Shown here piece after piece: positions 13,219-22,874 of a stretch of 48,184 bases of DNA (position 1 is its first letter; every line of letters begins with the position of its first letter). The notes below the pieces were generated by a model. It was not told where the DNA came from, made no database searches, and saw only the letters and a list, made by a program, of their open reading frames with translations. This DNA is from a bacterium (GTDB lineage: Bacteria > Armatimonadota > Zipacnadia > Zipacnadales > UBA11051): assembly GCA_021372615.1 (NCBI GenBank), contig JAJFUB010000159.1:1-48184 (forward strand). The letters run 5' to 3'. Both the position numbers and the translations under genes were made by a program.

Positions 13219-13356
13219 CTGTAGGGCGGGGGCTTGTACCCCGCCCAAGTCGTGCGGTCGGCGGGCGGGGCTTGTACCCCGCCGCGAGCGGCACTGACCC
13301 AACGGCGGGCGGGGTACAAGCCCCCTGAGATCGCAAGCGATCTCTACGCCCTACAG
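13219..13356. repeat. Inverted repeat family B, copy 1
   Basis: The element begins CTGTAGGGCGGGGGCTTGTA and ends GATCTCTACGCCCTACAG. It contains three blocks of the GGGCGGGG(C)TTGTACCCCGCC type, the last in opposite orientation, plus a small hairpin GAGATCGC/GCGATCTC at 13327-13344. A shorter, oppositely oriented copy is at 20334-20433. It sits just upstream of rbsK and falsely extends that open frame. Confidence 0.88.
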
Positions 13357-17035: not shown

Positions 17036-17734
17036 CTACTGCGCTATCGTCCGGGGCGGAGCGACCTCGCCCACGCGCTCGTACTGCCTTTGCTGTAACT
17101 CGTAGATGGCCTGCATGACCGCCTCGGTCAGGTCCTGGAGCGCGGCCTTGTCCGGATGGTCGCCCCCGAAGCGGTCGGGAGAGATCGGCTCGCCGTAGTC
17201 CACCTGGACGCGCCCCCGGTGAAGGCCGCCCTTGCCCCGGCGTATGATCTTGTCCGTCTCTTTGAGCGCCGCCGGGATGATCGGCACATGGGCGCGCGTG
17301 GCCATCAGCGCCGGCCCGATGTTGCCCGGTTGCAGCGACCCGTCGGGGCTGCGTCCGCCCTCGGGGAAGACGACGAGCAGTTCGCCCTGCTCCAGCAGCT
17401 CGATGCCGTGGCGGATGGCCTCGCGGTCGGTCGTGCCGCGGTCCACGGGGAAGGCATAGCACTTGCGGATCATCTCGCCCAGCACCGGGACCTCGAACAG
17501 TTCCTTCTTGGCCATGAAGTACGTCCGGCGGGGGACGAACCCCGCGCCCAGGACCGGGGGATCGAGGTACGAGATGTGGTTCGAGCAGATGACGGCGCCG
17601 CCCCGGGAGGGGATGTTTGCCCGCCCGGTGACGCGGTAGCCACCCATGAGGCGGCACAGTGTCCGCGCGAGCCAGGCGCCGAAGTAGTAGTGGGGCCACG
17701 TCCAGCGGCGCACGGGCTCGGGGGTCTTACGCAT
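17036..17734 (-). CDS. plsC: 1-acyl-sn-glycerol-3-phosphate acyltransferase
   Basis: This 232-residue enzyme acylates lysophosphatidic acid to phosphatidic acid at the inner membrane. The acyltransferase box NHISYLD is at 52-58 (catalytic His53/Asp58), the substrate-binding FPEGGRS at 123-129, and MAKKELF at about 74-80. A hydrophobic N-terminal segment (about 16-32) may dip into the membrane. The ATG overlaps the end of the tyrA-cmk frame by eight bases. A cmk-plsC pairing is conserved in many bacteria, which supports the call. Confidence 0.93.
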   Translation of the reverse strand: MRKTPEPVRRWTWPHYYFGAWLARTLCRLMGGYRVTGRANIPSRGGAVICSNHISYLDPPVLGAGFVPRRTYFMAKKELFEVPVLGEMIRKCYAFPVDRGTTDREAIRHGIELLEQGELLVVFPEGGRSPDGSLQPGNIGPALMATRAHVPIIPAALKETDKIIRRGKGGLHRGRVQVDYGEPISPDRFGGDHPDKAALQDLTEAVMQAIYELQQRQYERVGEVAPPRTIAQ

Positions 17735-19280
17735 GTTGCCGCTCCCGCACGATCTGCACGATCTGCGCTACGACCTGCGCGGCGGTGAGGTCATCGCTGC
17801 AGATCTCGAGGGCATCATCGGCCCGCCGCAGCGGCGCCACGGCGCGCGACGAGTCGCGCTGGTCGCGGACGTTCTGCTCGTGGAGGATGTCCTCGTAGGT
17901 TACTTCCAGGCCCATGTCGCGTAGCTGGCGATAGCGCCGCCGGGCGCGCTCCTGGGGGCTGGCGGTCAGGAATATCTTCACCTCGGCATCGGGCAACACC
18001 ACGGTGCCGATGTCGCGTCCCTCCATGACGATCCCCCCGCCGGCCGCCATCTGCCGCTGGGCGATCACCAGGTTGTGCCGCACCAGCGGGATGGCCGAGA
18101 CGGGCGACGACAACCGCCCCACTTCCGGCAGCCGCACCACCGACTCGACATCCTGCCCGTCCACGAATAGATGGCGCTCGCTTTCCACGGTGCGGAACTC
18201 ATAGTTGAGCTGGCCGGCAAGGCGGCCGATCTCATCATCATTCAGGCCGGGCGCCAGGCCCTTCCCTTTGGCGAAGTAGGCCACGGCGCGGTACATGGCG
18301 CCGGTGTCAATGATCGTGTAGCCCAACTCGTGGGCCACGTCGCGCGCCACCGAGCTCTTGCCGGCTCCAGCCGGGCCGTCAATCGCGACTCTGACACCGG
18401 GACAGGGCATGTCACGACCTCCACCGGCGGCGGTGAGGTGGTCGCGGAACTGCTTGGCCTGGGCCAGCAGCCCCACCAGCGCCGCCACATCATCGCTTTG
18501 CAGGGCCTGGCGCAGGTCGGCCAGGGCTTGCTCGGCGCGGGTGCAGGCCTGCAGCACCTGCGCCTGATTGCTCAGGAAGATATCCTTCCACAACTCCGGC
18601 GAGGAAGCGGCGATGCGCGTGCTGTCGCGCAGGCCGGCGCCGGAGAAGTCCGCCAGCGCGCGGGGCTCGTCACTGCGGCTGAGGCCCAGGGACAACGCCG
18701 CGGCCCACAGGTGGGGGAGATGGCTGGCCAGGGCCACCAGGTGGTCGTGCTCTTCGGGAGTGGCCAGCAGGGGGCGCGCCCCCAGGGCCCTGACGAACTC
18801 CAGCAGCCGGGACAGCAGCTCCTCGTCCGCCTCCTGGGGCGTCAGGATGTACGAGCGGTCCACGAACAGGTCGGCGCTGCTGGCCTGAATGCCGCTTTTC
18901 TCCGACCCCGCCATGGGGTGCCCGCCAATGAAGCTGGCCGGCAGGAAGCGCGCGCCGTCGCGGCAGATCTGCCCCTTCACACTGCCCGCGTCGGTGACCG
19001 CGCAACCGATCGAGACCGCCGGGGCGATCTGCTCCAGAATGCCGGCGATGGCGCACACCGGCGCCGACACATACACCAGGTCGGCGCCGCGCACGGCGGC
19101 CAGGAGGTCGTCACTGACCTGGTCCACCGCGCCGGCAGCTACCGCGCCCTGCCGCGAGGTCTCCGAGCGGCTGTACCCCACAATCTCCCCGACCAGGCAG
19201 CGCTTGTGCGCGGCCAGGCCCACCGACCCGCCAATCAGCCCCAGCCCCACGATGGCGAGACGTTCATAGAGAACCGACAT
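17727..19280 (-). CDS. Prephenate dehydrogenase-cytidylate kinase fusion
   Basis: One 517-residue frame holds two enzymes. Residues 1-290 form TyrA: the NAD-binding GLGLIGGS (12-19), GGHPMAGSEKSG (about 118) and SHLPHLWAAAL are family marks, for prephenate to 4-hydroxyphenylpyruvate in tyrosine synthesis. Residues 291-517 form Cmk: the P-loop GPAGAGKS (302-309), DTGAMYRAVAY and VMEGRDIGTVV, for phosphorylation of CMP/dCMP. The linker is only TAAGGGRD. Met291 (ATG at 18410) has its own GGAGG seven bases upstream, so separate Cmk could also be made. The start ATG directly follows the aroF stop. A one-base indel would recreate a TGA stop just before Met291, so an assembly frameshift must be excluded. 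Confidence 0.85.
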   Translation of the reverse strand: MSVLYERLAIVGLGLIGGSVGLAAHKRCLVGEIVGYSRSETSRQGAVAAGAVDQVSDDLLAAVRGADLVYVSAPVCAIAGILEQIAPAVSIGCAVTDAGSVKGQICRDGARFLPASFIGGHPMAGSEKSGIQASSADLFVDRSYILTPQEADEELLSRLLEFVRALGARPLLATPEEHDHLVALASHLPHLWAAALSLGLSRSDEPRALADFSGAGLRDSTRIAASSPELWKDIFLSNQAQVLQACTRAEQALADLRQALQSDDVAALVGLLAQAKQFRDHLTAAGGGRDMPCPGVRVAIDGPAGAGKSSVARDVAHELGYTIIDTGAMYRAVAYFAKGKGLAPGLNDDEIGRLAGQLNYEFRTVESERHLFVDGQDVESVVRLPEVGRLSSPVSAIPLVRHNLVIAQRQMAAGGGIVMEGRDIGTVVLPDAEVKIFLTASPQERARRRYRQLRDMGLEVTYEDILHEQNVRDQRDSSRAVAPLRRADDALEICSDDLTAAQVVAQIVQIVRERQHA

Positions 19281-20303
19281 CTACATCTCCGCCCCCACAA
19301 TCTGGACGACCTGACGGATCTGCTCCATGAGCACGGCGAAGCGTTTGGGGGTGAGGGATTGCGGGCCGTCGCAGCGGGCCTGGTCGGGGTGGGGATGGAC
19401 CTCGACCATGAGGCCATCGGCCCCGCCGGCCAGCGCCGCCAGCGCCATCGGCCCGACCAGCCGGTGGGTGCCGGTGGCATGGCTGGGGTCCACGATGATC
19501 GGCAGGTGGGTTTCCAGCTTGGCCGCGGCCATCCCCGCCAGGTCCAGCGTGAACCGCGTCACCGTGTCAAACGACCGGATGCCGCGCTCGCACATGATGA
19601 TGCTGAGGTTGCCGGTGGTGGCGATGTACTCGGCGGCCTTCAGCCACTCCTCGACGGTAGCGGCAAAGCCGCGCTTGAGCATCACGGGCTTGCCGGTGGC
19701 GCCGGCTTCGCGCAACAGGTCGAAGTTCGACATGTTGCGGGCCCCGATCTGGATGGCGTCGCACATCGAAGCGACCAGCTCGATCTGCCGCGGCTCCATG
19801 GCCTCGGTGATCGTGGGCAGGCCCGCTTCCTGGCCGGCCGCCATCAGCAGCTTGACGCCATCCTCGCGCAGGCCCTGGAAATCGTAGGGGCTGCTGCGGG
19901 GCTTGAAGGCGCCACCGCGGAGCACATGGGCGCCCGCGGCCTTCACGGCCTTGGCCGCCTCGCGCACCTGCTTCTCGGTCTCGATGGTGCAGGGCCCGGC
20001 GATGATGCCGACATGCCCGGACCCGAACTCCGCGTCACCCACCCGCACGATGGTCCCCTGGGGGTGATGGTCGCGGCTGACCAGCTTGAAGGACTTAAGG
20101 ATCGGCACCACGCGTTCGACGGCGGGGAGCTGGGAGAGCTGCTCGGCGACCTGCTGCTTCTCGCGCTCGTTGGCGCCGATGGCCCCGATGATGGTGCGCT
20201 CGACGCCGGCCGAGACGTGATGGCCGTACCCCCGGGCCTCCAGGCGCTTGATGACATCCTGGGTCTGTTTCTGGGTGGCCCCGGGGGCCATGACGATGAT
20301 CAC
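19281..20303 (-). CDS. aroF: 3-deoxy-7-phosphoheptulonate synthase (DAHP synthase)
   Basis: This 340-residue enzyme catalyses the first shikimate-pathway step from PEP and erythrose-4-phosphate. An N-terminal ferredoxin-like regulatory domain (about 1-70, VIKRLEARGYGHHVS) precedes the AroA-beta barrel with IIAGPCTIE, RGGAFKPRSSPYDFQG, QIGARNMSNF and IIVDPSHATG. The start is GTG 20303: AGGAGG lies seven bases upstream and the encoded MIIVMAPGAT opening is typical. Upstream codons, giving AGYKPPEIASDLYALQ, come from repeat B2 and are excluded. It abuts tyrA-cmk without a gap. Confidence 0.95.
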   Translation of the reverse strand: MIIVMAPGATQKQTQDVIKRLEARGYGHHVSAGVERTIIGAIGANEREKQQVAEQLSQLPAVERVVPILKSFKLVSRDHHPQGTIVRVGDAEFGSGHVGIIAGPCTIETEKQVREAAKAVKAAGAHVLRGGAFKPRSSPYDFQGLREDGVKLLMAAGQEAGLPTITEAMEPRQIELVASMCDAIQIGARNMSNFDLLREAGATGKPVMLKRGFAATVEEWLKAAEYIATTGNLSIIMCERGIRSFDTVTRFTLDLAGMAAAKLETHLPIIVDPSHATGTHRLVGPMALAALAGGADGLMVEVHPHPDQARCDGPQSLTPKRFAVLMEQIRQVVQIVGAEM

Positions 20304-20333
20304 GACGACTCCTCCTGCCTTACGACGCGGCCA

Positions 20334-20433
20334 CTGTAGGGCGTAGAGATCGCTCGCGATCTCAGGGGGCTTGTACCCCGCCCTGTATGGCACATACCCA
20401 ACGGAGGGCGGGGTACAAGCCCCCGCCCTACAG
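20334..20433. repeat. Inverted repeat family B, copy 2
   Basis: This 100-base element begins CTGTAGGGCGTAGAGATCGC and ends AAGCCCCCGCCCTACAG. It contains two opposed GGGCGGGGTACAAG blocks and a GAGATCGC/GCGATCTC hairpin at its left end. It is the reverse orientation of copy 1 at 13219. It sits between hisC and aroF within a minus-strand operon, where it could attenuate or protect the transcript. Confidence 0.88.
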
Positions 20434-20444
20434 CACGGCTCTCC

Positions 20445-21536
20445 CTACGCGAGCACTTCGCGCAGGGCCGCGATGAACTTACGGTTCTGGTCCATGGTGC
20501 CATACGACACGCGGATCATGGTGTTCAGGCCCCAGATGTCGCCGGTGCGCACCGTGATGCCTCGCCGCATCAGCCCGTCGTACACCGCGCGGCAGTCCTG
20601 CTTGACGTTCACCAGCAAGAAGTTGGCCTGGGTGGGCACATAGGACAGGCCCATGGCCTCGAACTCGCCATACCAGTACTGCTTCGACTCCCGTGCCTGT
20701 TCCTGCGTGGCGCGGACGTGGGCCGCGTCATCGAGGGCGGCGAGGGCTGCCGCCTGCCCCACGGTGCTGACATTGAAGGGCGCGAGCACGAAGCGCAGGC
20801 CCTCGATCACGCGCGGCCCGGCCGAGCAGTAGCCGACCCGCAGCCCGGCCAGCCCGTAGATCTTGCTGAAGGTGCGCATGACGACAGCGTTGCGCCCGGC
20901 GCGGACGTAGTCCAGGCAATTGGGGAAGGCGGGGTCGTCGGCATACTCATAGTACGCCTCGTCGAACAGCACGATGACATCCTCGGGCACGCGCGCCATG
21001 AAGTCATCCACCTGCTGCTGGGTGACGATGGTGCCGGTGGGGTTGCACGGGTTACCGATGATGATGATCTTGGTCCGGTCCGTGACGGCGTCGAGCATGG
21101 CGTCTAGATCGTGGTCGAAGCCCTTCGCGGGAACCTGCTTGCACACCGCGTCGCAGACATGCGCGGTCATCGGGTAGAGCGCGAAGGGGAACTCGGAGTA
21201 GATCATCTCATCCCCGGGGTTCAGGAACGCCAGCCCGAGCATGTGGATCAGTTCGTCGGAGCCGCGGCCGACCATGATGCTGTCCGCGGACACGCCCATG
21301 TGCGCGGCCAGCTTGGCCGACAGCTCGCGGCAGACCGGGTCAGGGTAGACATGGACATCGCCGGCGGCCGCGCAGATGGCCTCGACGGCCTTGGGTGACG
21401 GCCCCAGGGGGTTCTCGTTCGAGGCCAGCTTGATGACTTCGGTGAGGCCGAACTCCTCCATGACCTCCTGGGAGAACTTGCCGGGGGAGTACGGAGTGAT
21501 GCGACGTACACACTGACAGACGAGGTCCTTGGACAT
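20445..21536 (-). CDS. hisC: Histidinol-phosphate aminotransferase family
   Basis: This 363-residue PLP-dependent class I/II aminotransferase has SNENPLGPSP (39-48), GRGSDELIHML, NPCNPTGT (162-169) and the PLP-lysine motif TFSKIYGLAGLRVGY with Lys225. The length is normal for HisC. GGAG lies six bases before ATG. No other his gene is nearby. Placement ahead of aroF and tyrA suggests that it may also, or mainly, transaminate phenylpyruvate and hydroxyphenylpyruvate, as many HisC-like enzymes do. Confidence 0.9.
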   Translation of the reverse strand: MSKDLVCQCVRRITPYSPGKFSQEVMEEFGLTEVIKLASNENPLGPSPKAVEAICAAAGDVHVYPDPVCRELSAKLAAHMGVSADSIMVGRGSDELIHMLGLAFLNPGDEMIYSEFPFALYPMTAHVCDAVCKQVPAKGFDHDLDAMLDAVTDRTKIIIIGNPCNPTGTIVTQQQVDDFMARVPEDVIVLFDEAYYEYADDPAFPNCLDYVRAGRNAVVMRTFSKIYGLAGLRVGYCSAGPRVIEGLRFVLAPFNVSTVGQAAALAALDDAAHVRATQEQARESKQYWYGEFEAMGLSYVPTQANFLLVNVKQDCRAVYDGLMRRGITVRTGDIWGLNTMIRVSYGTMDQNRKFIAALREVLA

Positions 21537-21674: not shown

Positions 21675-22232
21675 CTATTCCGACGCTGCCTGCGGCCAGC
21701 GCTCCGGCCACTTCGCCCGGAATTCGTCGCGCAGCAGCCCCATCTCCAGGATGTCCTGGTAGGCCCCGTGGCGGTAGAAGGCCTCCCGGAGCCGCCCCTC
21801 GTGCACGAAGCCGACCTTCTCGTAGCAGCGGATGCCGCGCGGGTTGAAGGCGTAGACGCACAGGGCGATGCGGTGCAGGTTCATCTGGGCGAAGCCGAAG
21901 CCGCACAGCGTGACCATGGCGTCGGTGCCGTAGCCCTGGCTCCAGTACTCCTTCTCGCCAATGGAGATACCGAGCATGGCGCAGCGGCTGACGGGGTCAA
22001 TGGAGTGCAGCCCGCACGAGCCGATGAGGCGCCCCTCGAGCGTCTCGATGCCTACGAGCAGCTCCTTGGCCGGGTCACGCTCCTGCTGCACCCAGCGTTG
22101 CTCATCGGCAAGCGACCGCGGGAAACGCCGGCCGAGGGTGTGGTTGACCTCCGGATCGTTCATCCAGCGCTGCACCGCTTCGGCATCGGCCGGCTCAAGG
22201 GCGCGCAAGTTGATCTTCTCGCCGCGGATCAT
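21675..22232 (-). CDS. GNAT acetyltransferase, RimJ/RimL-like, tandem copy 1
   Basis: This 185-residue acetyltransferase has the acetyl-CoA-binding stretch in the EYWSQGYGTDAM segment (about 95-106) and FNPRGIRCYEKVGFVHEG, typical of the RimJ/RimL branch. GGGAGG lies six bases before ATG 22232; the longer open frame to 22265 has no ribosome site. It aligns without gaps to the next gene, differing at 45 of 185 positions by hand count (about 76% identity). The acceptor is unknown: N-terminal amines, small molecules or nucleotide sugars are all possible. Confidence 0.88.
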   Translation of the reverse strand: MIRGEKINLRALEPADAEAVQRWMNDPEVNHTLGRRFPRSLADEQRWVQQERDPAKELLVGIETLEGRLIGSCGLHSIDPVSRCAMLGISIGEKEYWSQGYGTDAMVTLCGFGFAQMNLHRIALCVYAFNPRGIRCYEKVGFVHEGRLREAFYRHGAYQDILEMGLLRDEFRAKWPERWPQAASE

Positions 22233-22260
22233 GGGGGACCTCCCCGATGGGGTGTGGGCA

Positions 22261-22288
22261 AGCATAGACTGTGCGGCGCGGCAGACAA
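22261..22288 (-). promoter_or_regulatory. Promoter of GNAT copy 1
   Basis: On the minus strand, TTGTCT (22288-22283) and TATGCT (22266-22261) are spaced by 16 bases. The same arrangement, with the same -35, occurs before GNAT copy 2, so the duplication carried its promoter. Confidence 0.6.
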
Positions 22289-22316: not shown

Positions 22317-22874
22317 TCACTCCGACGCTGCCTGCGGCCAGCGCTCCGGCCACTTCACCCGGAACTCGTCGCGCAGCAGCCCCATCTCCAGCAGGTCCTG
22401 GTAGGCGCCGTGCTTGTAGTAGGCCTCGCGCAGCCGCCCCTCGTGCACGAAGCCCACCTTCTCGTAGCAGGCGATGCCCCGGGGGTTGAACGCGAATACA
22501 TGCAGCCCGATGCGGTGCAGGTTCATCTGCCCGAAGCCGAACGCACACAGCGTGAGCATGGCATCGGTCCCGTAGCCCTGACCCCAGTACTCCTTCTCGC
22601 CGATCATGATGCCCAACGAGGCATTGTGGCTCACCGGGTCAATCCGGTGCAATCCGCAGGAGCCGATGAGCTGGCCCTCCGCGATCTGGATCCCGAACTG
22701 CAACTCCTTGGTGTTGTCGCGTTCGCGCTCCAGCCAGCGCTGCTCTTCCAGCAGCGACCGGGGGAAGCGCCCGCCGAGAGTGTGGACAACCTCGGCGTCA
22801 TTGATCCAGCGCCACAGGGTCTCCAGATCGGTCTGCTCCAGCGGACGGAGGGTGATTCTCTCTCCGGCTACCAT
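22317..22874 (-). CDS. GNAT acetyltransferase, RimJ/RimL-like, tandem copy 2
   Basis: This 185-residue paralogue of the gene at 21675 has the same motifs (EYWGQGYGTDAM, FNPRGIACYEKVGFVHEG) and an identical last twelve residues, KWPERWPQAASE. Differences concentrate in the first 95 residues, and the C-terminal half is nearly identical. GGGAGG precedes ATG by six bases. The two copies have separate promoters and may act on different acceptors. Function beyond acetyl transfer is not evident. Confidence 0.88.
   Translation of the reverse strand: MVAGERITLRPLEQTDLETLWRWINDAEVVHTLGGRFPRSLLEEQRWLERERDNTKELQFGIQIAEGQLIGSCGLHRIDPVSHNASLGIMIGEKEYWGQGYGTDAMLTLCAFGFGQMNLHRIGLHVFAFNPRGIACYEKVGFVHEGRLREAYYKHGAYQDLLEMGLLRDEFRVKWPERWPQAASE

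Follow-up and report, generated by a model that had tools for sequence, protein, structure and literature searches.

A probable inherited fusion of the operon neighbors tyrA and cmk in two genera of one bacterial family

TyrA is known to occur fused to AroQ, to AroF (EPSP synthase), to HisHb, to ACT, and to a regulatory domain (Song et al. 2005, PMC1173090). That tyrA, the EPSP synthase gene (there called aroF), and cmk share one bacterial gene string has long been known, and the TyrA review names cmk as a syntenic neighbor only, not as a fusion partner (PMC1173090). Fusions of Cmk are represented in NCBIfam with AroA (PRK11860), PanC (PRK13477), and Der (PRK09518) as partners. The gene described here resembles TyrA-AroF (PRK14806) in that tyrA is joined to a syntenic neighbor, the partner is C-terminal, and the TyrA core is ordinary; unlike the known TyrA fusions (with AroF, AroQ, HisHb, or ACT), it has as its partner Cmk, which lies outside aromatic synthesis. 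It shares with the NCBIfam Cmk fusions the covalent attachment of Cmk to an enzyme of another pathway, and with PRK11860 and PRK13477 the C-terminal position of Cmk, but differs from them in having TyrA as the N-terminal partner. None of the listed NCBIfam models spans the two halves, and the bifunctional models all stay below their cut-offs: the bifunctional TyrA-AroA model PRK14806 scores 249.9 bits against a cut-off of 902, with the TyrA part alone matching, and the bifunctional AroA-Cmk model PRK11860 scores 186.7 bits against 943, with the Cmk part alone matching. No description of a prephenate dehydrogenase-cytidylate kinase fusion was found in the literature searched, although domain-architecture databases may record one. 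TyrA-Cmk is thus a new pairing within familiar types of fusion, and its explanation is an ordinary one.

The window (the whole stretch of DNA analyzed, 48,184 nucleotides) contains a minus-strand open reading frame (ORF) without internal stops that encodes a complete TyrA and a complete Cmk (Table 1). The earlier note had placed both enzymes in one uninterrupted 517-codon frame, and this is borne out by the ORF and by its Pfam domains. PDH_N covers residues 21 to 169 (3e-37; 127.9 bits against a gathering score of 26.5), PDH_C covers residues 174 to 273 (7e-22; 78.1 bits against 22), and Cytidylate_kin covers residues 298 to 512, nearly its whole profile. The TyrA part, with both domains above gathering, carries the GxGxxG nucleotide motif as GLGLIGG and the HPxAG motif within GGHPMAG, as members of the family do; the Cmk part scores 234.1 bits against the equivalog TIGR00017 (cut-off, 135.55) and has the P-loop GPxGxGKS as GPAGAGKS. 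Among solved structures, the closest to the two parts are prephenate dehydrogenases and cytidylate kinases of the ordinary kind, with a nearly full-length match for each. We infer that both enzyme activities are present. No second copy of the TyrA-Cmk protein or of Cytidylate_kin was detected elsewhere in the 171 contigs of the source genome; duplicate copies of TyrA or Cmk were considered and rejected, since the search returned no further matches. Within the fusion gene, the search for RNA elements gave just one subthreshold chance match.

Table 1. Positions of the fusion gene, its parts, and its operon neighbors in the window
Feature	Position	Strand	Evidence and remarks
hisC-type aminotransferase, at the head of the conserved string	20445..21536	-	TIGR01141; order conserved
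DAHP synthase gene, next upstream	19281..20393	-	NF006421; its TAG is immediately followed by the tyrA ATG
tyrA-cmk fusion gene	17727..19280	-	517 codons; open frame, Pfam/NCBIfam, same fusion in G001
TyrA (prephenate/arogenate dehydrogenase) part, residues 1-282	18435..19280	-	PDH_N + PDH_C; solved relatives 4wji, 7mqv, 5uyy
Linker, about residues 283-295	18396..18434	-	Alignment and AlphaFold2 model; hinge 286-293, pLDDT under 50
Candidate internal start for free Cmk (227 aa)	18408..18422	-	GGAGG, 7-nt spacer, in-frame ATG 18410 (codon 291); absent in G001
Cmk ((d)CMP kinase) part, residues 296-517	17730..18395	-	Cytidylate_kin 7e-71; TIGR00017; P-loop GPAGAGKS 302-309
plsC-type acyltransferase, next downstream	17036..17734	-	PF01553; order conserved; overlaps cmk end by 8 nt

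G001, a genome from another genus in the GTDB family of the source genome, carries the same fusion at full length and without a stop, as a 519-aa ORF with 66% identity to the source protein, in the same operon and in the same gene order as in the source genome. No second match to the fusion protein and no second Cmk were found in G001. Between the two genomes, the TyrA halves are 61% identical and the Cmk halves 78%, which is near the range of unfused pairs at similar distance and means that neither half of the fusion is in decay. The earlier note had held that the fusion was either recent or an artifact, a choice that G001 removes by sharing a junction of equal length with halves that have diverged this far. 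Because of that divergence between two genera, the fusion is not very recent, and it is not widespread either (2 of the 291 phylum genomes searched).

The family search covered seven species: the source genome (G000), G001, and five species of a third genus, g3. tyrA and cmk are fused in the first two and separate in all five g3 species, in four of which they lie near each other; in the fifth (G003) they are on different contigs. The earlier note had taken separate genes in all close relatives as a finding that would count against a fusion, and the picture is mixed, with G001 fused and g3 not. In both domain trees the two fused proteins pair (support of 95/86 for TyrA and 100/99 for Cmk), and the g3 proteins stand apart from this pair with support of 100/99. 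Because the fused proteins pair in both trees and the g3 genes are unfused, the sequences are most simply read as reflecting a single fusion event that preceded the split of the two genera. Beyond these two genomes, no further in-frame fusion was found in the class (46 genomes) or in the phylum (291 genomes). For each genome the phylum search scored only a few top candidates, and it could overlook a fusion that has diverged strongly or has a long linker. Two apparent fusions were rejected (G005 and G279): their matches span the whole query, but a stop separates tyrA from cmk. Loci from Omnitrophota that seem joined by span were rejected as well, since tyrA and cmk are yet in separate frames. 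One Omnitrophota locus (L040:985-1849) has a tyrA adjoining cmk that is broken by a stop into two pieces, either an assembly error or a pseudogene. No plasmid-borne fusions covering 80% of the query were found.

The source operon runs hisC, DAHP synthase, tyrA, cmk, plsC, and the way its genes abut and overlap (Table 1) looks as it would in a tight operon. In most of the order's other families, aroA stands between tyrA and cmk: the fully read loci of families f2, f3, f5, and f6 have DAHP synthase, tyrA, aroA, cmk, and plsC; in one f6 genome (G011), cmk is on another contig. An arrangement without aroA, in which tyrA adjoins cmk, occurs in the source family and in f7 (same class) and also farther away, in two other members of the phylum and in Omnitrophota; unfused neighboring tyrA and cmk occur in g3, in G279, and in Omnitrophota. 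The source genome has a separate aroA on contig C86 (TIGR01356), plus a separate murA; loss of aroA was rejected because the gene sits on this other contig. Either aroA left the operon in the source family or it entered the operon in the others, and both ways the adjacency of tyrA and cmk would predate the fusion.

The window also holds a dispersed palindromic repeat, GGGGCTTGTACCCCGCC ... GGCGGGGTACAAGCCCC, at 13229-13324 and 20366-20424 (two 59-nt copies, 86% identical). Its 17-base arm has 148 occurrences in the genome with at most one mismatch, compared with 2 for the reversed control, and the arms often form facing pairs about 42 nt apart, which is REP- or MITE-like. One of the copies stands between hisC and the DAHP synthase gene. 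The mechanically assigned start of the DAHP synthase ORF, GTG 20393, falls inside the repeat (20366-20393). With the G001 homologue beginning MIIVM, translation probably starts about 25 to 35 codons further in. Upstream of hisC, two similar tandem GNAT-like acetyltransferase ORFs (21675-22265 and 22317-22874) are, by eye, an apparent duplication.

The linker had been put at about eight residues. Measured from FRDxL in the TyrA core to AIDGP in the Cmk core, it is about 15 to 16 residues, approximately the natural TyrA tail and Cmk leader of unfused genes combined: unfused TyrAs in the family stop a few residues past FRDxL, and unfused Cmks begin a few residues before AIDGP. The linker is thus little more than both of them joined end to end. 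In the alignment, the FRDxL-AIDGP codon count is identical in the source genome and G001, and the residues are different. An AlphaFold2 model built from 18 sequences has a mean pLDDT of 89 and two confident domains, with a pTM of 0.58; it predicts a flexible hinge and no fixed arrangement of the TyrA and Cmk domains. TyrA proteins dimerize by way of PDH_C, which Pfam lists as their dimerization domain, and Cmk is usually monomeric, so the likely form is a TyrA dimer bearing two Cmk arms.

We give a probability of about 0.88 to the following reading: the fusion is genuine and inherited, it joins operon neighbors, and it encodes a bifunctional protein with independent domains, providing equimolar synthesis and not channeling. 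The fusion probably owes its origin to the adjacency of the two genes. In an old operon (hisC, DAHP synthase, tyrA, with or without aroA, cmk, plsC), tyrA and cmk would have been neighbors; the ancestor of the two genera, in which aroA did not separate them, would then have lost the tyrA stop, so that the tyrA frame ran on into cmk. The resulting protein would combine, on a short flexible hinge, a prephenate (or arogenate) dehydrogenase at its N terminus with a CMP kinase at its C terminus, two domains that would fold and work independently; equimolar synthesis of the two enzymes is the only consequence that we infer. Under this reading the source genome may also make a little free Cmk from ATG 18410, but the reading does not need it.

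An error of sequencing or assembly, in which an indel at 18411-18440 merged two genes, is scarcely to be entertained. A TGA in another frame does end one base before ATG 18410, as the earlier note observed, and arithmetically one indel would indeed give back two genes, but this has no relevance here. A different genus has the same fusion with an equal-length junction at 66% protein identity. Two independent errors of equal net length in the same place would be required, which is not credible, and we reject this explanation. That the fusion couples tyrosine synthesis and CMP phosphorylation metabolically, through channeling or shared allosteric control, is very improbable, if slightly less so. 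The earlier note had drawn a tie between the two from the fusion, provided that the fusion was real; all that speaks for it is that the enzymes are covalently linked and have stayed so in two genera. The reactions of TyrA and Cmk have no common intermediate, so channeling is not expected; moreover, the predicted hinge leaves the domains free, the g3 relatives manage without the fusion, and adjacency in a conserved operon is cause enough.

Synthesis of two products, the fusion and a free 227-residue Cmk, is a more serious possibility, though still an unlikely one. GGAGG stands seven bases before the in-frame ATG, as had been noted; the full GGAGGT is well spaced, and the ATG is exactly at the expected start of Cmk. 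In 32 ORFs chosen mechanically from the window there are 226 internal in-frame ATGs, of which only 4 have a Shine-Dalgarno (SD) match of at least 5 bases at 4 to 11 nt. The other three are at codons 32 to 58 and may be misassigned starts, and 18410 alone is deep in its gene, which makes the site locally unusual by a test that was post hoc. Against its use, the G001 junction has no in-frame ATG, GTG, or TTG, and the bases may merely be those of the GGGRD linker (GGT GGA GGT). Because G001 has neither a start codon at the junction nor a second Cmk that we could find, its Cmk must, as far as the sequence tells, be made and work as part of the fusion, and free Cmk is not a product that the fusion genes have conserved. 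A retained Cmk start, as previously suggested, is thus specific to the source genome at best, although the ATG and its SD match exist there; the site could be left over from the former cmk start, could be functional, or could stem from the glycine-rich linker. It is somewhat more doubtful still that the whole of a broader claim is correct, namely, an undescribed bifunctional TyrA-Cmk enzyme spread over at least two genera by inheritance, one of which also makes free Cmk by way of the internal start.

With the inherited fusion as the preferred reading, one bacterial family documents both the unfused and the fused state of an operon pair. The case is also a warning that functional coupling is not to be read into every fusion, since the partner here is off-pathway and adjacency explains the joining. 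As a rare character, the fusion marks a clade of two genera.
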